Source: an uncultured Vicinamibacterales bacterium (lineage in GTDB: Bacteria > Acidobacteriota > Vicinamibacteria > Vicinamibacterales > UBA8438). From it: a stretch of DNA of 64,000 nucleotides. How positions within the stretch are numbered: the first letter of the stretch is position 1; the number at the start of each line of letters is the position of its first letter. A program made the position numbers and the translations under genes. The notes beneath the pieces were generated by a model. It worked only from the letters and a program-made list of their open reading frames with translations, was not told where the DNA came from and did no database searches. Below, one piece after another: positions 16,558-60,284 of the stretch. The stretch spans positions 2,566,001 through 2,630,000 of the forward strand of contig OY282382.1 of the NCBI GenBank assembly GCA_958295905.1, in the 5' to 3' direction.

Positions 16558-17965
16558 CTCCATCGACGAAGACGACGCCGGCCCGGACCAGGGGCAGCAG
16601 ATGCGCCCCGTTCAGCCGGCGCCATCGCCGCTGCGCCATCGCCACCAGCTTGTAGGCCATCAGCAGCCCCTTGGTCCGCGAACCCGCGCCCTTGGTCACG
16701 CGCTGCCGAAGACGCACCGTCGCAAACACCGACTCGATCACGTTCGACGTCCGCAGGTGGCGCCAGTGCTCCCCCGGGAAGCCGAAGAATGCCAGCAGGG
16801 CCTCCCGGTCCTCCGCCAGGCACGTCGCCGCCTTCGGATACTTCGCCTCGAACTCCGCAACGAAGGCGTCGATGCCACGCTCCGCGTCGGCCTTCGTCTC
16901 CGCATACATGATGTCCCGCAGCGCCCGCTTCGCACGTGGCTGAAGACGCTTCGGCAGCTTGTCGAGCACGTTGGCCAGCTTGTGGCACCAGTCCCGCTGC
17001 ACCGTCGTCTCCGGCCACACGTCACGCAGCGCCGACCAGAAGCCCAGCGCCCCGTCACCAATCGCCACCGCCGGCGCCCGCAGACCGCGGCCCCGCAGGT
17101 CCCGCAGCACGTCCGCCCAGCTATCCCCGCTCTCCCGGTAGCCGTCCTCCAGCGCCACCAGCTCCTTCGTCCCGTCCGCCGTCACCCCGATCACCACCAG
17201 CGTGCACAGACGGTCCTCCTCCAGCCGGATGTTGAAGTGAATCCCGTCCACCCACACGTATACATAGTCGCCCGCAGACAGGTCGCGGCGCCGGAACGCC
17301 TGGTACTCCTCGTCCCACGCCGCCGTCAGCCGCGTGATGGTCGTCGGACTCAGACCCGACGCGTCCTCCCCCAGCAGCGCCGGCAGCGCCTCTCGGAAGT
17401 CGCCCGTCGACAGGCCCCGCAGATACAGCAGCGGCAGCACCTCGGAAACCTGCGGCGACCGCCGCATATAGGGAGGCAGAATGCGGCTGGTGAACCGCTC
17501 GCGGGCACCGTCGGCATCGACCCGCTTGTCGTTCACCCGCGGCGCCCGCACCGGCCACGTGCCCGCCCCGCAGGTCACCGTCCGCTCCTGCGCCTGGCCG
17601 TTCCGCACCACCAGCCGGTGCCCGTCCGCATCGCGCGTGTCCGCAAACCGCTCGATGTACTCCGTCACCTCCGCCTCCAGGGCCGTCATCAGCATCCGCC
17701 GTGCCCCTTCGCGAGCCAACATGTCCAGCGTCGGCGGCACGACCCGCGGCCCGTCGTCCCCGCCGCTGCTGACCCCCTCGCCAGCCGACACCGTCGTGGG
17801 CGCGTCGGCGACTGCGGGGTTGTCTTCGTTCCTGTTGTCAGGTACCGTCAGCATGGGTGGTGTCTCCTTTCCCCCGGCCTTGCCTGCCAGGGTGTCTTGC
17901 GTTGTTCACACGGAAGGATACGCCACCTGCCTCACGCCGCGATCCACAACTTTCGGTTATACCTC
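16478..17965 (-). mobile_element. IS256-family insertion sequence, copy B (inverted relative to copy A)
   Basis: 1488 bp with the same terminal repeats as copy A. The right flank is ACGCTTTCT, the complement of the AGAAAGCGT that follows copy A, so these are the two halves of one 9-bp target duplication now placed 6.9 kb apart. The left flank (CGGCCGGG) interrupts the glycosyltransferase gene tail. Confidence 0.95.
16517..17854 (-). CDS. IS256-family (mutator-type) transposase, copy B
   Basis: 445 residues, identical in sequence to the protein of copy A at 9658. All DDE residues are present (VWVDGIHF, IGDGALGFW, SNVIESVFA). The leader carries AAAGGAG before the ATG at 17854. The opposite orientation of two identical copies makes this pair a substrate for inversion by homologous recombination. 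Confidence 0.97.
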   Translation of the reverse strand: MLTVPDNRNEDNPAVADAPTTVSAGEGVSSGGDDGPRVVPPTLDMLAREGARRMLMTALEAEVTEYIERFADTRDADGHRLVVRNGQAQERTVTCGAGTWPVRAPRVNDKRVDADGARERFTSRILPPYMRRSPQVSEVLPLLYLRGLSTGDFREALPALLGEDASGLSPTTITRLTAAWDEEYQAFRRRDLSAGDYVYVWVDGIHFNIRLEEDRLCTLVVIGVTADGTKELVALEDGYRESGDSWADVLRDLRGRGLRAPAVAIGDGALGFWSALRDVWPETTVQRDWCHKLANVLDKLPKRLQPRAKRALRDIMYAETKADAERGIDAFVAEFEAKYPKAATCLAEDREALLAFFGFPGEHWRHLRTSNVIESVFATVRLRQRVTKGAGSRTKGLLMAYKLVAMAQRRWRRLNGAHLLPLVRAGVVFVDGVIQMEREDRKEAA

Positions 17966-18026
17966 ACGCTTTCTCCCGGCCGCGCAACGCGCTGTTCATC
18001 CGGAAGCCGGTGATAGATGGTCCGCG

Positions 18027-19667
18027 ATGCCTGCTCCGCGATCCGCCTCTCCGCGTCTCGTGTGGTCCTGCGGGCTGTGCGGGCTGTGCGCCCTGATCGC
18101 CCTCGCGCTGGCCGCGCCCGCTGCGGAGCGCGAATGGCTGGCCGGCGACTCGCACATCCACAGCCACTGGAGCACCGGATACGACTACCGCACCAGTCCG
18201 CCGACCCCGATCAAGGGGCGGGACGCCGACTACTCGACCCCGTACTCGACCCCGCGGAACGCGGCGATGGCGCGGCGGTTCGGCCTGCGCTGGATGGTGA
18301 CGACCGACCACGGCGGCCCGTATCACTCGGAGGTGAACCTGGAGCAGGCGCACCGCGAGTTGACCCTGTCGCGCGAGCTTGTTCCCGAGGTGCTCCAGTT
18401 CTACGGCATGGAGCTCAACATGCCGGGCATGGACCACCACACCCTGATCATTCCCCGCGCCGAGGACGAGGCGTCGGTGCTGCACGAGATAGAGAGCCGT
18501 TTCGACGCTGACGAGGACTGGGCCCGTCCCCCCGACCCCCGCCGGCGGTCGGCGGCGCTTAGCAGCCCGTGGCAAAACTCCGCGGCGCGCCAAAACCGGC
18601 CGGCGGTGGCGCGGAAACGGCTCGGATCGGCCAGATTTCGGCGATTTCGACGGCTGCACGACACGTTCTTGGGCCGAGATACGGCCCGGCCGGATGCAGC
18701 ACCACTTCTGCCACGGCCTGTTAGGCGGCAGGCGCTTGCGCACATGCAGGCGCTCGATCGGCTGCCGATCCTGTTCGCCAACCACCCGTCCCGGACGGCG
18801 AGGGGGATAGGGCTCTACGGCTTTGACGAGCCGTGGGAGATCCGGGAGAACAACGACCTCGCGCCCGACGTGTACCGCGGCATGGAGGGCGCGCTCGGCC
18901 ACCAAGCCAACACCTTCAGTGATCAGGACTACAACGAGTACCGCGGCCTCTACCGCCTCGGGGGGCCGACCCTGGGCGGCTTCGACCAGATGACCGCCGT
19001 CGTCGGCGGCCTGTGGGACGCCCTGCTCGGCGAAGGGCGCCGGTTCTGGATCGTGGCCTCGTCAGACTTTCATTCCCACTACAACGAGCCGGCGAGCCTC
19101 GGAGGGGGGAGGAGAGACTTCTGGCCCGGCGAATTCCACAAGACGTGGGTCGAGGCGCGCCCGACCTACGCCGACGTCCTCGACGGCCTCCGGCAGGGCC
19201 GCGTCTTCGCCGTCGCGGGCGACCTCGTCACCGAGTTCGACGTGCGTTTGACGGATCCCGGCGGGCATGAAGCCGGGCTCGGCGGCACGTTGCGGGTCGC
19301 GCGCGGAGCGCAGGTCACCGCGGCGGTCCGGTTCCGCGACCCCGAGACCCCGAACGGGGCGGGGGAGAACCCCGGCGTCCGGCGGGTCGACGTCATCGTC
19401 GGCGACGTGCGCGAACCGCCCGCCGGTCCCTCCGTCGACCGCAACCCGACGACCCGGGTCCTCGCCCGGTTCACGCGCGAGGTCCTGGCCCGCGACGGCG
19501 ACCGGTACGCCCTCGAGGCGGCGCTGCCCGCGGTCGACCGCGATCTCTACGTCCGGGTGCGCGGCACGAGCACCGACGACCTCGAACCCCGGATGGACGG
19601 CCCCGGAGAGAACCCCTGGCACGACCTCTGGTTCTACTCGAACCCGATCTTCATTGAGGTCGAGTGA
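18027..19667 (+). CDS. Secreted PHP/DUF3604-like metal-dependent hydrolase, copy 1, carrying an in-frame MITE
   Basis: 546 residues. A signal peptide (LCALIALALAAPAAE) precedes a PHP-type domain with metal-ligand motifs GDSHIHSHWS, TTDHGGPYHS, MDHHTLIIPR, FANHPSRTARG and SSDFHSHYNEP, all retained. A C-terminal beta-rich part (VTAAVRFRDPE, VRRVDVIVGDVRE) ends IFIEVE and stop. Compared with copy 2 at 26257 it has 54 extra residues (SSPWQNSAARQ to PLLPRPV) between the third and fourth metal motifs, exactly the 158-bp MITE plus its 4-bp duplication. The insert is open in this frame, so a full-length protein can be made, but folding and activity are uncertain. Copy 2 continues into a DVYL module; here the last codons changed to a stop. 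Substrate unknown; phosphoester or carbohydrate hydrolysis is typical of PHP proteins. Confidence 0.75.
   Translation: MPAPRSASPRLVWSCGLCGLCALIALALAAPAAEREWLAGDSHIHSHWSTGYDYRTSPPTPIKGRDADYSTPYSTPRNAAMARRFGLRWMVTTDHGGPYHSEVNLEQAHRELTLSRELVPEVLQFYGMELNMPGMDHHTLIIPRAEDEASVLHEIESRFDADEDWARPPDPRRRSAALSSPWQNSAARQNRPAVARKRLGSARFRRFRRLHDTFLGRDTARPDAAPLLPRPVRRQALAHMQALDRLPILFANHPSRTARGIGLYGFDEPWEIRENNDLAPDVYRGMEGALGHQANTFSDQDYNEYRGLYRLGGPTLGGFDQMTAVVGGLWDALLGEGRRFWIVASSDFHSHYNEPASLGGGRRDFWPGEFHKTWVEARPTYADVLDGLRQGRVFAVAGDLVTEFDVRLTDPGGHEAGLGGTLRVARGAQVTAAVRFRDPETPNGAGENPGVRRVDVIVGDVREPPAGPSVDRNPTTRVLARFTREVLARDGDRYALEAALPAVDRDLYVRVRGTSTDDLEPRMDGPGENPWHDLWFYSNPIFIEVE
18563..18720. mobile_element. 158-bp MITE, copy 1 (inside PHP gene)
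   Basis: Starts CAGCCCGTGGCAAAACT and ends, inverted, CAGGCCGTGGCAGAAGT. It is flanked by TTAG on both sides (18559-18562 and 18721-18724). The empty site exists in the second gene copy (GCGCTTAGGCGG at about 26777), which proves insertion. No coding capacity for a transposase. Confidence 0.93.
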
Positions 19668-26204: not shown

Positions 26205-26256
26205 CCGGCCGCGCAACGCGCTGTTCATCCGGAAGCCGGTGATAGAATGGCCCGCG

Positions 26257-28124
26257 ATGCCTGCTCCGCGATCCGCCTCTCCGCGTCTCGTGTGGTCCTG
26301 CGGGCTGTGCGCCCTGATCGCCCTCGCGCTGGCCGCGCCCGCTGCGGAGCGCGAATGGCTGGCCGGCGACTCGCACATCCACAGCCACTGGAGCACCGGA
26401 TACGACTACCGCACCAGTCCGCCGACCCCGATCAAGGGGCGGGACGCCGACTACTCGACCCCGTACTCGACCCCGCGGAACGCGGCGATGGCGCGGCGGT
26501 TCGGCCTGCGCTGGATGGTGACGACCGACCACGGCGGCCCGTATCACTCGAAGGTGAACCTGGAGCAGGCGCACCGCGAGCTGACCTTGTCGCGCGAGCT
26601 CGTTCCCGAGGTGCTCCAGTTCTACGGCATGGAGCTCAACATGCCGGGCATGGACCACCACACCCTGATCATTCCCCGCGCCGAGGACGAGGCGTCGGTG
26701 CTGCACGAGATAGAGAGCCGTTTCGACGCCGACGAGGACTGGGCCCGTCCCCCCGACCCCCGCCGGCGGTCGGCGGCGCTTAGGCGGCAGGCGCTTGCGC
26801 ACATGCAGGCGCTCGATCGGCTGCCGATCCTGTTCGCCAACCACCCGTCCCGGACGGCGAGGGGGATAGGGCTCTACGGCTTTGACGAGCCGTGGGAGAT
26901 CCGGGAGAACAACGACCTCGCGCCCGACGTGTACCGCGGCATGGAGGGCGCGCTCGGCCACCAAGCCAACACCTTCAGTGATCAGGACTACAACGAGTAC
27001 CGCGGCCTCTACCGCCTCGGGGGGCCGACCCTGGGCGGCTTCGACCAGATGACCGCCGTCGTCGGCGGCCTGTGGGACGCCCTGCTCGGCGAAGGGCGCC
27101 GGTTCTGGATCGTGGCCTCGTCAGACTTTCATTCCCACTACAACGAGCCGGCGAGCCTCGGAGGGGGGAGGAGAGACTTCTGGCCCGGCGAATTCCACAA
27201 GACGTGGGTCGAGGCGCGCCCGACCTACGCCGACGTCCTCGACGGCCTCCGGCAGGGCCGCGTCTTCGCCGTCGCGGGCGACCTCGTCACCGAGTTCGAC
27301 GTGCGTTTGACGGATCCCGGCGGGCATGAAGCCGGGCTCGGCGGCACGTTGCGGGTCGCGCGCGGAGCGCAGGTCACCGCGGCGGTCCGGTTCCGCGACC
27401 CCGAGACCCCGAACGGGGCGGGGGAGAACCCCGGCGTCCGGCGGGTCGACGTCATCGTCGGCGACGTGCGCGAACCGCCCGCCGGTCCCTCCGTCGACCG
27501 CAACCCGACGACCCGGGGCCTCGCCCGGTTCACGCGCGAGGTCCTGGCCCGCGACGGCGACCGGTACGCCCTCGAGGCGCGCTGCCCGCGGTCGACCGCG
27601 ATCTCTACGTCCGGGTGCGCGGCACGAGCACCGACGACCTCGAACCCCGGATGGACGGCCCCGGAGAGAACCCCTGGCACGACCTCTGGTTCTACTCGAA
27701 CCCGATCTTCATCGAGGTCGATGAAACGATGCCGGCGGACGATTACGTGGCTAGACTAGTCGGAAACAACCCGCCGGTCATCCGCTCCGACTGGGATGTG
27801 TATCTCGTTGAAGACAGCCTCATCTACGTCAGCGACCCATGCAGCCCGGAGGACATTGAACCCGAATTCTTCGTCCACCTGCTCCCGGTCGACGTGAACG
27901 ACCTCCCCAGCCACCGCAAGCAGCACGGCTTCGACGGCTTCAACTTTGATTTCAGGAACCACCTTGTCATCGAGGGAGGCGTCTGCGTAGCGCGGCGGGA
28001 ACTGCCTGATTACGCCTACGCCATCGCCGTGGTCCGCACCGGCCAGTTCAACGGCGACGGCCAGATCTGGAACGGCGGCTTCGACCTCGCCGGGCCGTCA
28101 GGCGACGGGCAGGCTGCGCCTTGA
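26257..28124 (+). pseudogene. PHP/DUF3604-like hydrolase with C-terminal DVYL module, copy 2, one frameshift
   Basis: Same protein as copy 1 without the MITE insert: signal peptide, GDSHIHSHWS, TTDHGGPYHS, MDHHTLIIPR, ALDRLPILFANHPSRTARG, SSDFHSHYNEP. A single G is missing near 27578 (GAGGCGCGCTG against GAGGCGGCGCTG). As it stands the frame runs out at 27759 with a scrambled tail, while the true C-terminus (DDLEPRMDGPGENPWHDLWF, NPIFIEVDETMPADDYVARL) continues in another frame from 27615 into a complete DVYL module ending at 28124. If the deletion is an assembly error, this is an intact two-domain secreted enzyme. The module is absent from copy 1 because of an early stop. Confidence 0.75.
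27771..28107 (+). repeat. DVYL module, copy b
   Basis: Encodes VIRSDWDVYLVEDSLIYVSD, PCSPEDIEPEFFVHLLPVDV, NDLPSHRKQHGFDGFNFDFR, then GGVCVARRELPDYAYAIAVV and RTGQFNGDGQIW. At DNA level it differs from copy d at 28810-29160 by roughly a dozen bases counted by eye, so one was copied from the other recently. Confidence 0.85.
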
Positions 28125-28219: not shown

Positions 28220-30568
28220 ATGAACCGTAACGGAAACAGCGTGCAAGGCTTGGCGCTGCGGCATGTCGCGCTCGCCCTGTTTGGACTCGCCCTGTTTGGA
28301 GTTGTTGCAACCGGCTGCTCCGAGGACCCAGCGGTGGCGGTGCCCACTCCCACTCCCACTTCCACTTCCACTCCCGAAGCCCGCGCCAGCGCCGACTACA
28401 TCAGCAGGCTCAACTACCTGGAGGCGCTGGTCAGAAATCGCGAACCCGCAGTCCGCTCCGACTTTGATGTATATCTCGGCGAAAATACGCTGGTCTATGT
28501 CAGGGAGCCGTGCTCCCCGGCCGACACCGAGGCACCGTTCTTTCTGCACCTGTTCCCCGCCCACGTGAACGACCTGCCCGACCATCGCGAACAAGACGGC
28601 TATGCCGACCGGGGCTTCAGCTTCGACGAGCGCGTCTCGATGTACGACGGCAGATGCTTGGCGGAAGTCTCTCTGCCGGGATACGCCATCTCCGAAATCA
28701 GAACCGGCCAGTATGCGCGTGTAGACGGCGAGTACAACAACCTCTGGGAGGGGAAAATTCGCCCCAATGAAGTGTACGACCGCGACTACTGGACGGAGCC
28801 GTTCGGAGACAACCGACCGGTCATCCGCTCCGACTGGGATGTGTACCTCGTTGAAGACAGTCTCATCTACGTCAGGGACCCATGCAGCCCGGAGGACATT
28901 GAACCCGAATTCTTCGTCCACCTGCTCCCGGTCGACGTGAACGACCTCCCCAGCCATCGTCAGCAGTACGGCTTCGACGGCTTCAACTTTGATTTCAGGA
29001 ACCACCTTGTCATCGAGGGAGGCGTCTGCGTAGCGCGGCGGGAACTGCCTGATTACGCCTACGCCATCGCCGCGGTCCGCACCGGCCAGTTCAACGGCGA
29101 CGGCCAGATCTGGAACGGCGGCTTCGACCGCGCCGGGCCGTCAGGCGACGGGCAGGCTGCACCCACCTCGGTGCCGGCTCCTGACCCCGCGGCCACCACC
29201 TCGACGCCTGCCGCCAAAACGGTCGGGTTGTTCCTGAACGAGCCTGAGGCATTTGACGGCTACACTTTATTTAATAAAGACCGAAGCAAGACGATTTATC
29301 TGATTGACAATCAGGGACGGGTAGTTCATAAGTGGGAGTTGGATGCTGAGAGCCTGTTCGCAAGGTTGCTGGAGAATGGAAATCTGCTGACTTTCGCCAA
29401 TCAAAGCCAGAGTGTGCGGGAAGTTGACCGGCATGGGAATATCCTTTGGGAATGCGCTCAGGGCATGCCGCATCATGACTTCCTTAAAATGCCCAACGGG
29501 AATGTGCTGCTGCTGTCCCGGCAACTTAAGACCGACGAGGAGGTCATCGCCGCCGGCGCCAACCCGGCATTCAGCGACCCTGAAGGCTTGTTCGCGCCGC
29601 ATATTGTGGAAGTCCGAATTACCGGGCCGGCAAGCTGCGAAATTGTCTGGGAATGGTCGGCGTGGGATCATCTGATTCAGGACTTTGACTCCGGCAAGGC
29701 GAATTACGGGGTGGTGGCTGAGCATCCGGAGTTGATTGACCTCAACTTCCACCTTTCCGATGTAGCCGACTGGGATGGCCCGTCGGATTGGATACACAGC
29801 AACGGAATCGACTATAACCCGGAATTGGACCAAGTTATACTATCGCCCCGTTATTTCAGCGAAGTGTGGATTATCGACCACAGCACCACCCGGGCCGAGG
29901 CCGCCGGCTCCAGTGGGGGAAATAGCGGCCAGGGGGGCGACCTGCTCTACCGCTGGGGCAACCCCCGTGCCTATCGGGCCGGGACGCCCGCTGACCAGCA
30001 ACTTTTCTGGCCGCATAATCCGCAATGGATTCCCCCCGGACTGCCGGGTGCCGGCAACATCCTCGTTTTCAACAATGGCAACGAGTTCCCGGGTTCATGG
30101 CGCCATTATTCGTCGGTGGATGAGATTGCCCCGCCGGTGGACGGGGCCAGCTACCGGCTGGATCCCGACCGGGCCTATGCTCCGGTCGAACCGGTATGGA
30201 CTTATACCGCCCCAACGCCCAGCGACTTTTTCGCCCGTTATATCTCAGGGGCGCAACGGCTGCCCAACGGAAACACGCTGATTTGCGACGGGGTACAAGG
30301 TACGCTTTTCGAGGTAACGCCGGCCGGCAAAACGGTTTGGAAGTACGTCAACCCGATGACCAGCAACGGCCCTTTGCGTCAAGGCGAGCCGGTGCCGTTG
30401 GAACAAGCGAGAAGTGGTCGTAGAGAAATACCGGCTAATCAGGTGTACCGCGCCTACCGGTATGCGCCGGACTACCCGGGTCTGCAGGGGCTGGATTTGA
30501 CTCCGGGTGAGCCAATCGAACTTTATTCCGCATTCAGCCCGGCGGTTGACGGGAACGCTGCACCGTGA
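28220..30568 (+). CDS. Arylsulfotransferase-like lipoprotein with two N-terminal DVYL modules
   Basis: 782 residues. The ATG at 28220 gives a lipoprotein signal (ALALFGLALFGVVATGC, lipobox ATGC), so the protein is anchored by Cys in the periplasm or outer membrane. A Thr/Pro spacer (PTPTPTSTSTPEA) is encoded by hexamer repeats. Two DVYL modules follow (residues about 75-170 and 200-310). The C-terminal 440 residues form an arylsulfotransferase-type six-bladed propeller: IYLIDNQGRVVHKWELD, NRQ-like blade repeats, GMPHHDFLKMPNGNVLLLSR and SDWIHSNGIDYNPELDQVIL SPRYFSEVWIID, where the His in WIHSN and PHHD are candidate catalytic residues. ASST enzymes transfer sulfate between phenolic donors and acceptors (family knowledge); the substrate here is unknown. 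The stop overlaps the next gene's start by 4 bp. Confidence 0.8.
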   Translation: MNRNGNSVQGLALRHVALALFGLALFGVVATGCSEDPAVAVPTPTPTSTSTPEARASADYISRLNYLEALVRNREPAVRSDFDVYLGENTLVYVREPCSPADTEAPFFLHLFPAHVNDLPDHREQDGYADRGFSFDERVSMYDGRCLAEVSLPGYAISEIRTGQYARVDGEYNNLWEGKIRPNEVYDRDYWTEPFGDNRPVIRSDWDVYLVEDSLIYVRDPCSPEDIEPEFFVHLLPVDVNDLPSHRQQYGFDGFNFDFRNHLVIEGGVCVARRELPDYAYAIAAVRTGQFNGDGQIWNGGFDRAGPSGDGQAAPTSVPAPDPAATTSTPAAKTVGLFLNEPEAFDGYTLFNKDRSKTIYLIDNQGRVVHKWELDAESLFARLLENGNLLTFANQSQSVREVDRHGNILWECAQGMPHHDFLKMPNGNVLLLSRQLKTDEEVIAAGANPAFSDPEGLFAPHIVEVRITGPASCEIVWEWSAWDHLIQDFDSGKANYGVVAEHPELIDLNFHLSDVADWDGPSDWIHSNGIDYNPELDQVILSPRYFSEVWIIDHSTTRAEAAGSSGGNSGQGGDLLYRWGNPRAYRAGTPADQQLFWPHNPQWIPPGLPGAGNILVFNNGNEFPGSWRHYSSVDEIAPPVDGASYRLDPDRAYAPVEPVWTYTAPTPSDFFARYISGAQRLPNGNTLICDGVQGTLFEVTPAGKTVWKYVNPMTSNGPLRQGEPVPLEQARSGRREIPANQVYRAYRYAPDYPGLQGLDLTPGEPIELYSAFSPAVDGNAAP
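28445..28722 (+). repeat. DVYL module, copy c
   Basis: First module of the arylsulfotransferase-like protein: VRSDFDVYLGENTLVYVREP, CSPADTEAPFFLHLFPAHVN, DLPDHREQDGYADRGFSFDE, DGRCLAEVSLPGYAISEIRT GQY. It diverges more than b, d and e, so this is the older tandem partner. A stray tail of another copy (VRTGQYTPG) is readable at about 28148-28175, ahead of the gene. Confidence 0.8.
28810..29160 (+). repeat. DVYL module, copy d
   Basis: Second module of the arylsulfotransferase-like protein: VIRSDWDVYLVEDSLIYVRD, PCSPEDIEPEFFVHLLPVDV, NDLPSHRQQYGFDGFNFDFR, GGVCVARRELPDYAYAIAAV. Nearly identical in DNA to copy b. Confidence 0.85.
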
Positions 30569-31745
30569 ACGGCGCCGGGCCGATGGACCGCTGGCGCGCC
30601 CTGTCCTCCCGGCTGCACAACGCGCTGTTCGTCCTGTTCATCGGGGGCATCCTGGCCTACGGGGCCGGGTTCGCCTGGTACCTGCTCGACCGTTTCGATC
30701 TCGTCAACGTCATCCGCGACGTGAACCAAGACGACGCCTTCTATTACTTCCAGATCGCCCGCAACCTGGCCGAGGGGAAGTTCTCGACCTTCGACGGCGG
30801 CATCACGCGCACCAACGGATATCACCCGCTCTGGCTGTTTCTGATCACGCCGTTCTACTGGGTATTCGACAAGGAAAGCTGCGCTGTTCGGCATCAAGGC
30901 CTTCGAGATCATGCTGGTTGCCGGTGCCGTCGCCCTCATCGCTGCAGCCGCTCGGCTGGCGCGCCTGCCGTGGGTTCTGATGTTCGCCGCGCTGCCGATG
31001 CTCTACCAGCAGCGCGCGCTGTTTTTGGGGATGGAAGCGGCGGCAGGGCTGTTCATGCTGGGCCTGTTCATGCTGGCCGCCTGCCTCTTCGCGCGCAGCC
31101 CGGCGCGCTGGAAAGTGGCCGCTCTGGCCGCGACCGCCTTCGCCCTGCCCTGGGTGCGCCTGGAGTATGTCGCCATATCCCTGGCGGCAACAGCCGCGCT
31201 GTGCCTGATCGAGTGGTCGAGGCGGGAATCCACCGCTCCCTCTCCCGTCGAAGGAGAGGAGGGTCTCGGCGCCCCGGACAGGGGGTTGGCGCAGTCCGTG
31301 CTCACGATGAACGCCGTCGCGCCACTGCTGGGCGCGGTCACCGGCATCCTCGCGTACTTCGCATACAACGGTATCGTCTTCGGGGGCGTGACGCCCGTGA
31401 GCGGCGCGACCAAGCAGATGTGGTCGGAGCGGTTATGGGAGCAGGAAGGCGGGTACAGCCTCGTTCAGAACTTCCGGGACGTCTTGCAGATTCCCGCCTT
31501 CGGCTACGAGCTGCTGGTCGCGCTCGATGTCTGCGCCTACGTCGTTCTGGTCTGGTGGTTCGCCCGCCGTTCCAGGGACCGGACAGACCGGCTGCTGCCG
31601 GCCTTCCTGGTGTGCGTATTCGGCCTGGCGGCGGGCCACCTCGCCAAGTTCGCGCAGACCGTTCTCACTGTGCATCCCTACTGGGGGAGTGATGTCTGGT
31701 ACTTCGTTCCGGCATACCTGCTGGAAACGCTTATCATTCCCGTAA

Positions 31746-31903
31746 CAGCCGGTGGCAAAACTCCGCGGTGCGCCGGAACTGGCTGGCGATGGCGCGGAAA
31801 CGGCTCCGATCGGCCGGATTTCGGCGATTTCGACCGCTGTACGACACGTTCTTGGGCCGAGTACGGCCCCGGCCGGACGCAGCACAACTTCTGCCACGGA
31901 CTG
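31746..31903. mobile_element. 158-bp MITE, copy 2 (inside glycosyltransferase pseudogene)
   Basis: Left end CAGCCGGTGGCAAAACT, right end inverted CAGTCCGTGGCAGAAGT. GTAA flanks both sides (31742-31745 and 31904-31907). Length 158 bp, same as the other copies, and the insertion keeps the reading frame of the host gene. Confidence 0.92.
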
Positions 31904-32802
31904 GTAAGGTGCTATGTCGCCATCCACTTCATCCGCCGTTTCCTCGACCTTGAAGTCGCCCGGGCAGCCAACCTCGTGAGCGTAGGCATCGTCGTTGTTG
32001 GCGCGGTTTTCCTGCTTACGTAGGTAGACTTCACCGCGCCGTTCCGATATGTTGACCGGGAGAGCGAGTCGACCCGCCAGAAATGGATGGGAACTTCTTA
32101 TATGGGTGTGCAGGTTATGAACCGTGTGCTGTCCGAGGACAGCGTGGTCGGGTCGTGGGACGCCGGCGTCATCGGGTATTTCTCTCGCTTTCCGGTGGTG
32201 AACCTGGACGGCTTGGTCAATTCCTACAGCTACCTGCGCGCCCAGAAGGAAGGAACCGAGCCCACCTTCTACCAGCGATACGGGATTACCCAGTTCGCCA
32301 ACAACTGGGCCCTACGGGAAGGAACCGAGGACTACATTTTGCCAGCATTACTGGATTACCCGGCTCGACAACGTCGGGAGCACTCGAGCGTCGGCACGAT
32401 CCTGGTCAAAGGCTCGCCATATCTCCATTACGCAAAGAACGCACCGCACAAGCGTCAATTCAGGCTCCTGACCATCGAGCCGCCGGAGATGCCGTCGGGC
32501 GGAATCAATCGTTCCGACTGGTTCTGGCAGCGGATGAAGCCACACTTCGGCCATCGGTCCGACGGCGTCGGGCTGATTGTGGACGGACGGACGGCACAGG
32601 CGTTCGTCAGAGATTGCACGCCGGGCGAGCTGGCAGTGTGGTCCTGGGTTGGCCAGGGAGATGAACCAGCCGTCGATTCCTGGACGCGAACGCAAACGGG
32701 GTTATGCGTGGACGCGCGCGTGCTGCCCCATGATGCGCTCCCGCCGGTCAGGGTTGAAACAATGTCAGCAAGCGATTGGGTGTCGGGGCCGCTGGGTGGT
32801 GG

Positions 32803-57488: not shown

Positions 57489-57646
57489 CAGCCCGTGGCA
57501 AAACTCCGCGGCGCGCCAGAACTGGCCGGCGCTGGCGCGGAAACGGCTCGGATCGGCCAGATTTCGGCGATTTCGACCGCTGTACGACACGCTCTTGGGC
57601 CGAATACGGTCCCGGCCGGATGCAGCACAACTTCTGCCACGGACTG
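57489..57646. mobile_element. 158-bp MITE, copy 3 (intergenic)
   Basis: Left end CAGCCCGTGGCAAAACT, right end inverted CAGTCCGTGGCAGAAGT. CCAG flanks both sides (57485-57488 and 57647-57650). It sits 11 bp beyond the stop of the DUF3604 gene. The rest of the 420-bp gap 57237-57656 has no gene. Confidence 0.93.
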
Positions 57647-57656
57647 CCAGGGGCCG

Positions 57657-60284
57657 CTACCGCGACGGATAGCCCCCCACCCAGATGGGACTCGACCACG
57701 CCATCGCGTCGTTCACCTGCCGCACCCGCACGTAGTAGTAGTCGCCCTGGCGCGGGGTGTCCTCGTCGGTGTGGCTGAAGCTGACGTCCCGCGGGCCGTT
57801 GCGGATGAGGCGGCGCAGGGTGATGCGGTCGTCGGGGTAGTCGTCGATGGGCATGGCCCGGCCGATGCCGCCCGCGTTGAGGGTCAGCCGCACCCGGGTG
57901 GCGGGGATGACCGCGGGGGGCCGGTAGAAGGGGGGCGCCGAGCCGGTCTCGGTGGTTTCCTCGAGGTCGATCGAGAGGGCCACGCTGGGGCGGATGCCCG
58001 ACAGCGTGAGCCGCAACGAGCTGCTGTCGCCGCGGGTGTGGGTGGCGAAGCGGGCGCCGTTGGCGGTCCGCTCGAGGAACTGGGTGGTCGGGTTCACGAA
58101 GTCGGTGGCGGAGACGGCGTTGACGGTCGCCCCGGTCACCCGCACCTCGCCGCGCCAGTGGCGCCAGCCCCGCGGGGCGTCGCCGGGGTGGACCGGCGTC
58201 TCGCCGGACGAGAACGACAGCAGCCACTCCTCCGTGCCGGCGGGCCGGCCGCGGCCCACCGCATACTCCCCGCTCCAGATGACCTCGTCGTTCTTCAGCA
58301 ATTCGACCGACCGGATGGGCGCGGTGCCGACGACCCGGCCCTCGACGGCGCGGACCTCGGCGTACTCGGCCTCCTGGCCCATCGACGTGCCGTTGACGTC
58401 GACGTCGAGGATGATGCGATCGCCGGTCGTCGCATAGGTGCGCCGCTGCTTCATCGCGTCGAAGATCGCGTCGCGCGACCGCTCGGGGGCCATGACCGCG
58501 CCGAGGCCGCCGCGCTGGGCCAGCGAGTTGCGGTTCGGGGCGGAGTAGCCGGGGTGCGACAGGTGGTCGTCCGAGGCGGCGATGAGGCCCACGCGGTGGC
58601 CGTGCGACAGGTACTGGCGGACGAACCCGTTGAAGGTGCCGTGCATCGACATCATCTCGATCAGGGGCTCGAGCCGCGGATCCGACTGGCGGTAGTCGCC
58701 GGGGTTGTGCGCGTGCGGGATCGCGAGGACGTCGGCGGGGTCGTAGCGCGCGTGCAGGCCCTGGTAGAGCTGCGACAGGGTCGGGTACTCGACGGCGGAC
58801 ACCGGCGTCCGGTCGGCGGTGTTCCGGTAGAGCACGTTGTGGTGGCCGCCGAACCGGGCGGGCCGGGTCCATTCCCAGCCGAGATAGGGGATGAACCGTC
58901 CCGGGTCGTCGAAAGCCTCCACCGCCCGCTTCGACAGCGCCCACTCCGCGTCGTCGAGCCAGACGTCGTGCTCGGAGTGGGTCACGAAGTCGAGCCGGGC
59001 GTCGTCGCGCGCGAACGTCATGAAGAAGTCGATGGTGCCGATGCCCTCGGCGTAGCCGGAGTGGCCGTGGGTGTCGCCCCAGAAGATGCGGCGCTCGGGG
59101 TTTTCGACGACGAGAATCGGATTGGCGTCGCCGGAGATCGCGCCGTCCTCCGACCGGATGTCGATCCAGTGCGGTCCCGGCTCGTCCAGCGTGAGGGGCA
59201 CGAGAGAGATGGCGTCGGCGCCGGCGGGGGTGGTGGCGCGCACCTCGCCGTTCACGAGCACCTCGAAGGCGGGGACGTCGCCGGTGGCGCGGTTGAAGAA
59301 CGCGTCCTCGGCGCGCACCGAGAGCTCGAACGGCTCGCCGGGCTCGACGATGCTCGGGGCGAAGCCGTGCACGCCGGCGACCCGCGTCCCGCTGACGACG
59401 AACGGCAGGATGGGCAGCGGACGCCACTCGCCGGACGCGTCGAGATCGACGTAGAGGGGCAGGGGCATCCGCGCGCTCGACGTGCCGGTCATCAGCAGCC
59501 CCGGTCCGCCGCCGCCGGTGTCGCCGTAGGTGATGGTGGCCGCCTCGCCGGGGTCGAGCCGGCCCGAGACGAGCCGGAAGACGAGGGCCGGCTCGGGCGC
59601 CCGGAACCCGCCGTGGGGACCGCGCGCCATGTAGATGTCGGGCTCGAACGCCGCGTCGGCGTCGGTGGTGTCGATGGTGACGTAGCCCTCGCCGGCGGGG
59701 TCGCCGGTCTGGAACGGGCCATAGTTCATGTTGAAGTGCCGGGCCACCCAGAAGCCGCCGCCGGTCTCGACCGCGCGCGTCCCCACCGTCCACGTCTGGC
59801 GGATGGTCTGGTGGCTGCGCGCCTCGAACGGGCCGAGCGACTCGGCCGTCAGCTCGCCGAGGGCGCCGGGCTCGTCGTGCAGCGTGAACTGGCGGACGAG
59901 CCGGTCTATGGTCCCGCCCTGGGCGACCGCCGCGCGGCCCCTCGGGGGCAGGGTCGCCTGCAGCCGCACGCGCGGGCCCTCCAGCCCGACTTCGCCGCCG
60001 CCGAGGGCGTAGGCGTCGACCCACTCGTCGAGGATGCGCGCGCGCTCGGCGATGGTCGTCTCGTCGGTGGGGCTCGCCGCCACGTCGATCTTGAGCTGCT
60101 CGACGGCGGCGCGGAGGTCCGGCGTCAGGTAGTCGCCGCCGCCGCCGTCCGGCGCCCCGCACGCGGCGGCCCAGCCGGCCAGCGCGAGGGCCAGCGGCGC
60201 CCGGCGCGAAACCGGTCTCGTGACGGCCTCGGTTCGGCTGCGCGCCGCACCGCATCGTTCTCTGTCCGCTGCCGAGTGTGTCAT
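57657..60284 (-). CDS. DUF3604 (PHP-fold) lipoprotein
   Basis: 875 residues. N-terminal lipoprotein signal (APLALALAGWAAACGAPDG, lipobox AAAC), so membrane-anchored in the periplasm. Long N-terminal beta-rich part, then the PHP-like domain: RRIFWGDTHGHSGYAEGIGT, LDFVTHSEHDVWLDDAEW, LAIPHAHNPGDYRQS, VGLIAASDDHLSHPGYS (GDxHxH, HSEHD, PHAH, SDDH metal ligands), then a C-terminal fibronectin-like part (RQGDYYYVRVRQVNDAMAWS SPIWVGGYPS). Function unknown; phosphodiesterase or hydrolase activity is likely from the metal cluster. It shares domain logic with the PHP genes at 18027 and 26257 but is not a close copy. Confidence 0.88.
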   Translation of the reverse strand: MTHSAADRERCGAARSRTEAVTRPVSRRAPLALALAGWAAACGAPDGGGGDYLTPDLRAAVEQLKIDVAASPTDETTIAERARILDEWVDAYALGGGEVGLEGPRVRLQATLPPRGRAAVAQGGTIDRLVRQFTLHDEPGALGELTAESLGPFEARSHQTIRQTWTVGTRAVETGGGFWVARHFNMNYGPFQTGDPAGEGYVTIDTTDADAAFEPDIYMARGPHGGFRAPEPALVFRLVSGRLDPGEAATITYGDTGGGGPGLLMTGTSSARMPLPLYVDLDASGEWRPLPILPFVVSGTRVAGVHGFAPSIVEPGEPFELSVRAEDAFFNRATGDVPAFEVLVNGEVRATTPAGADAISLVPLTLDEPGPHWIDIRSEDGAISGDANPILVVENPERRIFWGDTHGHSGYAEGIGTIDFFMTFARDDARLDFVTHSEHDVWLDDAEWALSKRAVEAFDDPGRFIPYLGWEWTRPARFGGHHNVLYRNTADRTPVSAVEYPTLSQLYQGLHARYDPADVLAIPHAHNPGDYRQSDPRLEPLIEMMSMHGTFNGFVRQYLSHGHRVGLIAASDDHLSHPGYSAPNRNSLAQRGGLGAVMAPERSRDAIFDAMKQRRTYATTGDRIILDVDVNGTSMGQEAEYAEVRAVEGRVVGTAPIRSVELLKNDEVIWSGEYAVGRGRPAGTEEWLLSFSSGETPVHPGDAPRGWRHWRGEVRVTGATVNAVSATDFVNPTTQFLERTANGARFATHTRGDSSSLRLTLSGIRPSVALSIDLEETTETGSAPPFYRPPAVIPATRVRLTLNAGGIGRAMPIDDYPDDRITLRRLIRNGPRDVSFSHTDEDTPRQGDYYYVRVRQVNDAMAWSSPIWVGGYPSR

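Follow-up and report, generated by a model that had tools for sequence, protein, structure and literature searches.

Can a MITE serve as a means of inserting protein sequence into genes? The question is raised by a 64,000-nucleotide stretch of DNA from an uncultured Vicinamibacterales bacterium (here, the window), where a MITE lies within a PHP hydrolase gene. The first-pass annotation of the window proposed that a transposon of this length, if it stays open, can act as a protein-insertion element. We analyzed the locus, the remaining copies of the MITE in the genome, and the genes that carry them.

A MITE is inserted in frame in a PHP hydrolase gene

The interval 18559-18724 reads exactly as TTAG, a 158-bp element, and TTAG (Table 1). 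The first bases of the element are CAGCCCGTGGCAAAA, and its last, an imperfect inverse of these, are TTCTGCCACGGCCTG. Its terminal arms are 22 nt long with 82% complementarity, and it carries no transposase. The open reading frame (17481-19667, likely start at 18027) spans the element uninterrupted. The MITE is therefore in frame and adds 54 codons, as had been claimed, and the insert does sit between the motifs MDHHTL and NHPSR. It had also been described as lacking stops in the host frame, which we found to hold for all six frames.

Table 1. Features of the window, and the IS1182-like element found elsewhere in the genome
Feature	Position	Strand	Basis and remarks
PHP/CehA-McbA-type metallohydrolase gene copy 1, MITE in frame	18027..19667	+	546 aa, 54 from the insertion
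Target-site duplication, left copy TTAG	18559..18562		Matches 18721-18724; only one TTAG in the paralog without insert
MITE copy, 158 bp, imperfect TIRs CAGCCCGTGGCAAAA / CAGGCCGTGGCAGAA	18563..18720	+	Inverted-repeat search; 0 stop trinucleotides in six frames
Target-site duplication, right copy TTAG	18721..18724		Identical to left copy; not duplicated in the paralog without insert
PHP paralog (copy 2), no MITE, exact empty site	26239..27759	+	DNA similarity to copy 1 stops at ~27724; 1-bp deletion alters C-terminus
Second MITE copy	31746..31903	+	In frame in C-terminal part of glycosyltransferase-like membrane protein ORF 30911-32023; TSD GTAA
Third MITE copy, intergenic	57489..57646	+	TSD CCAG; ~10 bp past the stop of minus-strand gene 57657-60284
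1457-bp IS1182-like element	L112:517-1973; also L113, L116, L117, L118		Each with 4-bp duplications

The PHP gene has two paralogs in the genome, one of which (copy 2) preserves the empty site. It is 99.6% identical to copy 1 over 947 bp and reads GGCGC-TTAG-GCGGC at the corresponding position, with nothing inserted. The single TTAG demonstrates the insertion and its net gain of 162 bp. Copy 2 lacks one G relative to copies 1 and 3 and so has a replaced C-terminus, although sequencing error is also a possible cause of indels in this assembly. Therefore, the MITE-bearing copy, which keeps the original C-terminus, is the one that holds the intact frame. Its derived changes are four synonymous substitutions, one replacement substitution, and a 9-bp in-frame insertion.

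The host protein probably belongs near the CehA/McbA metallohydrolases, judging from its match to NCBIfam NF038032 (62.3 bits, under the cut-off of 80). We aligned it with orthologs from Vicinamibacteria and other bacteria. The region of the insertion site was variable, whereas the metal-binding motifs were conserved, and copy 1 kept these motifs, the metal ligands, and the invariant D/H residues of the PHP core despite the insert. None of the orthologs compared had the insert. Its translation, which includes SSPWQNSAARQNRPAVAR, is strongly basic (13 R+K in 53 residues). In an AlphaFold model of the insert-bearing protein, the insert is predicted to be disordered (pLDDT of about 32 to 48) and the PHP core is predicted to form around it, with adjoining core blocks reaching 90 or more. 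The MITE in this gene is 100% identical to five other copies in the genome, so it must be very young.

The MITE family and a candidate mobilizing element

Several genome searches combined recovered at least 61 copies of the MITE in full length and 15 in part; the copy count is a lower bound. Perfect 4-bp duplications flank 45 of the 61 full copies, with TA at the center in 33. We found no match in a further 27 genomes from the taxonomic family, two of which belong to the same genus, and this restricts the MITE to 1 of 28 genomes. A plasmid search also gave no match to the MITE, and an Rfam search of the window gave none. One insertion site is present on contigs C1 and C2, at L209 (C1:5933300-5937300) and L210 (C2:115900-119900), and this segment has therefore been duplicated between them.

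Two MITE copies lie directly upstream of genes, one (L002:1505-1662) of an ABC transporter gene and the other (L025:1502-1659) of an inositol-monophosphatase family gene, where the duplication contains a start codon. Effects on expression of these downstream genes are possible. The genome also has more MITE-like repeats (L065-L079), with ends CAGCCCGTGGCGAAA, varied interiors, and stop trinucleotides. Those that could be bounded are 159 to 256 bp long, and they apparently represent several chimeric MITE families.

Relaxed scans of the MITE ends led to a 1457-bp insertion sequence with the TIRs CAGCCCGTGGTGAAA / CAGCCCGAGGTAGAA and many near-identical copies. A matching 4-bp duplication was found at each of seven copies (CTAC, GTAG, CTAG, CTGA, and TTAC among them). 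The best match of its transposase was NF033551 (IS1182; 170 bits, E 8e-50), which is below the curated cut-off of 270, and PF05598 and PF01609 were both above their cut-offs. PF13586 (IS5-type) gave no match. Assignment of the NTAN duplications to IS5/IS427 was dropped, because the transposase fits IS1182 better. A 1.9-kb segment (C1:590851-592768; L031:1852-3769) was considered as an autonomous parent and rejected; it is a MITE copy into which an ISL3-like element (family called by eye) with its own ends has inserted. From its termini and duplications, the 1457-bp element is likely to mobilize the MITE. The similarity between the two is confined to about 22 bp at the ends, so the mobilizing transposase is one that we infer. 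Such sharing of terminal sequence only has been described as common for MITEs (PMC3852290).

Stop-freedom and length vary within the family

We counted the six types of stop-related trinucleotides in each full copy. There were none in 34 of the 61, which are thus without a stop in any of six frames, one in 16, and two in 11. Among dinucleotide shuffles, one given frame was open in 51 to 58% and all six were open in about 1.1 to 1.3%. Therefore, a single open frame is ordinary. Openness of all six frames is moderately unusual and, because the copies are related by descent, amounts to something close to one observation. Substitutions on the branches of the copy tree included 21 that create stops, compared with 30.6 ± 4.8 expected. 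Stop-freedom has been maintained weakly at best; this deficit is suggestive and leaves room for weak selection for openness. The net length gain is a multiple of three for 33 of the 61 copies (54%) and would shift a reading frame for the other 28. Copies of 157 and 159 bp are also common, and both of these lineages have recently transposed.

Genic copies are mostly in frame, few, and young

To identify genic sites, we spliced together the sequences on either side of each copy and scored their codon usage with a self-trained codon model; Pfam matches and visual continuity were also used, in place of curated annotation. This gave seven distinct sites, five of them beyond the two already noted in the window. 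The MITE is in frame at six, in genes for the PHP hydrolase, the glycosyltransferase-like membrane protein, an LRR protein, a tyrosine recombinase, a transglutaminase/DUF2126 remnant, and a weakly DUF4276-like protein. The seventh is a zinc-ribbon-like gene (called by eye from CxxC motifs) on contig C2 that is frameshifted by a 157-bp copy. RloB was considered as the identity of the DUF4276-like host (L006) and set aside; Pfam gave just weak DUF4276/Imm32 matches. The earlier claim that the second copy is in frame in the glycosyltransferase gene was borne out. That gene is itself split, in the region 30560-31000, by a frameshift at about 30880-30900, upstream of the MITE and unrelated to it.

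Six of seven sites in frame did not significantly exceed the 54% frame-neutral share of the family (binomial, ~0.09). The fusions draw on three forward frames and one reverse frame, and we found no peptide frame common to them. Therefore, no single peptide is being inserted.

Genic copies make up 7 of 61 (11%), compared with 51% of TA sites in predicted coding sequence as estimated from this one IS-rich window, a roughly fivefold depletion. Their distances to the nearest sibling are 0, 0, 0, 0, 0, 1, and 3, whereas those of other copies are broad and range up to 24 (Mann-Whitney p = 0.0024), and 5 of the 16 youngest copies are genic. Older insertions within genes are mostly gone. These data are most simply read as insertions arriving in genes at a fair rate and being lost afterwards. 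The proposal of a protein-insertion element stands in part. Two outcomes that would have counted against it, stops in all frames of most copies and a lack of in-gene sites beyond the two in the window, were both looked for, and neither was obtained. The MITE does enter open reading frames in frame, stay open, and lengthen them. However, it is neither dedicated to this nor retained in genes, given the depletion and youth of genic copies, the many frame-shifting copies (one of them in a gene), and the lack of a shared peptide frame. As a label, the term goes too far.

Explanations for the in-frame fusions

We consider it likely that this is an ordinary MITE with recent activity, that its main active lineages are frame-neutral by chance, and that some of its genic insertions survive briefly as in-frame fusions. 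The non-autonomous MITE would most likely be moved in trans by the co-resident IS1182-like transposase, whose element has near-identical ends and the same 4-bp NYRN (mostly NTAN) duplication, and it would land wherever a target of the NYRN type occurs. The currently active subfamilies are mostly 158 bp long, for a total of 162 bp with the duplication, and are nearly free of the six stop-related trinucleotides. Because of this net gain and the near absence of stops, insertion in any frame and either orientation would usually leave the host frame open. If the fusions are translated, each would gain 54 residues, mostly arginine-rich and probably unstructured. Such insertions may be mild enough to be visible for a time and then lost, presumably purged by selection, while intergenic copies persist.

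Alternatively, the lineage might have evolved to be invisible to translation. It would have been selected for stop-free frames, six in all, and for a net length that is a multiple of three. A peptide could then be inserted in any gene, frame, or orientation, genic insertions would be tolerated, and the element would spread. The stop-free majority of copies would fit this, since about 1% of shuffles reach that state, as would the somewhat low number of stop-creating substitutions. So would the 5 to 8 stop trinucleotides in sibling MITE families with similar ends, and the 158-bp length of every one of the five genic copies that have an identical sibling elsewhere. However, the deficit amounts to roughly two standard deviations, which CpG context could explain, little more than half of the copies have a frame-neutral length while lineages of other lengths have also moved recently, and genic copies are few and young. 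We regard such selection as unlikely.

It is possible, if somewhat doubtful, that the fusions are instead pseudogenes, with the insertion inactivating the host and the open frame being a high-GC accident still awaiting decay. Redundancy or existing damage is seen in several of the host genes. The PHP gene has its paralogs, the glycosyltransferase-like gene has its independent frameshift, and the transglutaminase/DUF2126 host seems to have an internal deletion. The insert in the tyrosine recombinase lies immediately before the GLR motif that bears the conserved catalytic Arg, and leaving it out raises the Pfam integrase score from 72.4 to 89.1 bits. The PHP gene argues the other way. Its MITE-bearing copy is the one otherwise intact in frame, most of its derived changes are either synonymous or indels that keep the frame, and its insert occupies a variable stretch with all metal ligands in place. 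The kept frame and the basic character of the insert might even suggest a domesticated peptide that gives the hydrolase a new and useful property. We find this highly improbable, because the insert is absent from all orthologs compared, is predicted to be disordered, and is identical to copies elsewhere in the genome.

Comparison with known systems

Within its own genome, the MITE compares with the IS1182 family, the probable source of its transposition machinery. The ends of the two are similar and their 4-bp target duplications are the same, but the sequence that they share is terminal only.

In-frame MITE fusions are already known for Rickettsia palindromic elements, ERIC/RU elements, the 107-bp Correia element, and Coxiella QMITEs (PMC10969869, PMC2229807, PMC2759123, PMC5896051). 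Rickettsia palindromic elements are repeats of about 105 to 150 bp with inverted ends that occur as in-frame fusions in protein genes of unrelated kinds (PMC10969869; PMC2229807). The present MITE resembles them in having repeatedly entered protein genes in frame, here at six sites. However, they encode a conserved peptide, whereas the MITE is read in different frames and orientations. Nearly half of them are in open reading frames, compared with 11% of MITE copies, and their in-frame insertions recur across several species, whereas the MITE is in one of 28 genomes and the PHP orthologs have no insert. QMITE1 and QMITE2 of Coxiella burnetii resemble the MITE in having about 50 copies, some in frame within or at the ends of open reading frames (PMC5896051). 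They differ in length and in duplication length, and they often add stops at gene ends.

The ERIC/RU-1, RU-2, and RU-3 repeats of enterobacteria and the 107-bp Correia element resemble the MITE in forming in-frame fusions, and six-frame openness is not among the features reported for them in the excerpts consulted. The 155-bp Correia form is stop-rich and almost exclusively intergenic, and open frames were thus linked to genic insertion earlier (PMC2229807). MITEAba12 is reported to have stops in all six frames (PMC6382973), as is RUP (PMC2229807).

The age comparison suggests that fusions are mostly short-lived and urges caution against reading in-frame MITEs as protein innovation. The family also permits asking whether genic insertions survive better when the element is stop-free and length-neutral. 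In this acidobacterium, a MITE has fused into protein genes, one paralog keeps the exact empty site, the copies number in the dozens and are graded in age, and a candidate insertion sequence resides in the genome. The present family joins the known in-frame MITE fusions as a further member, one with an unusually stop-free sequence.
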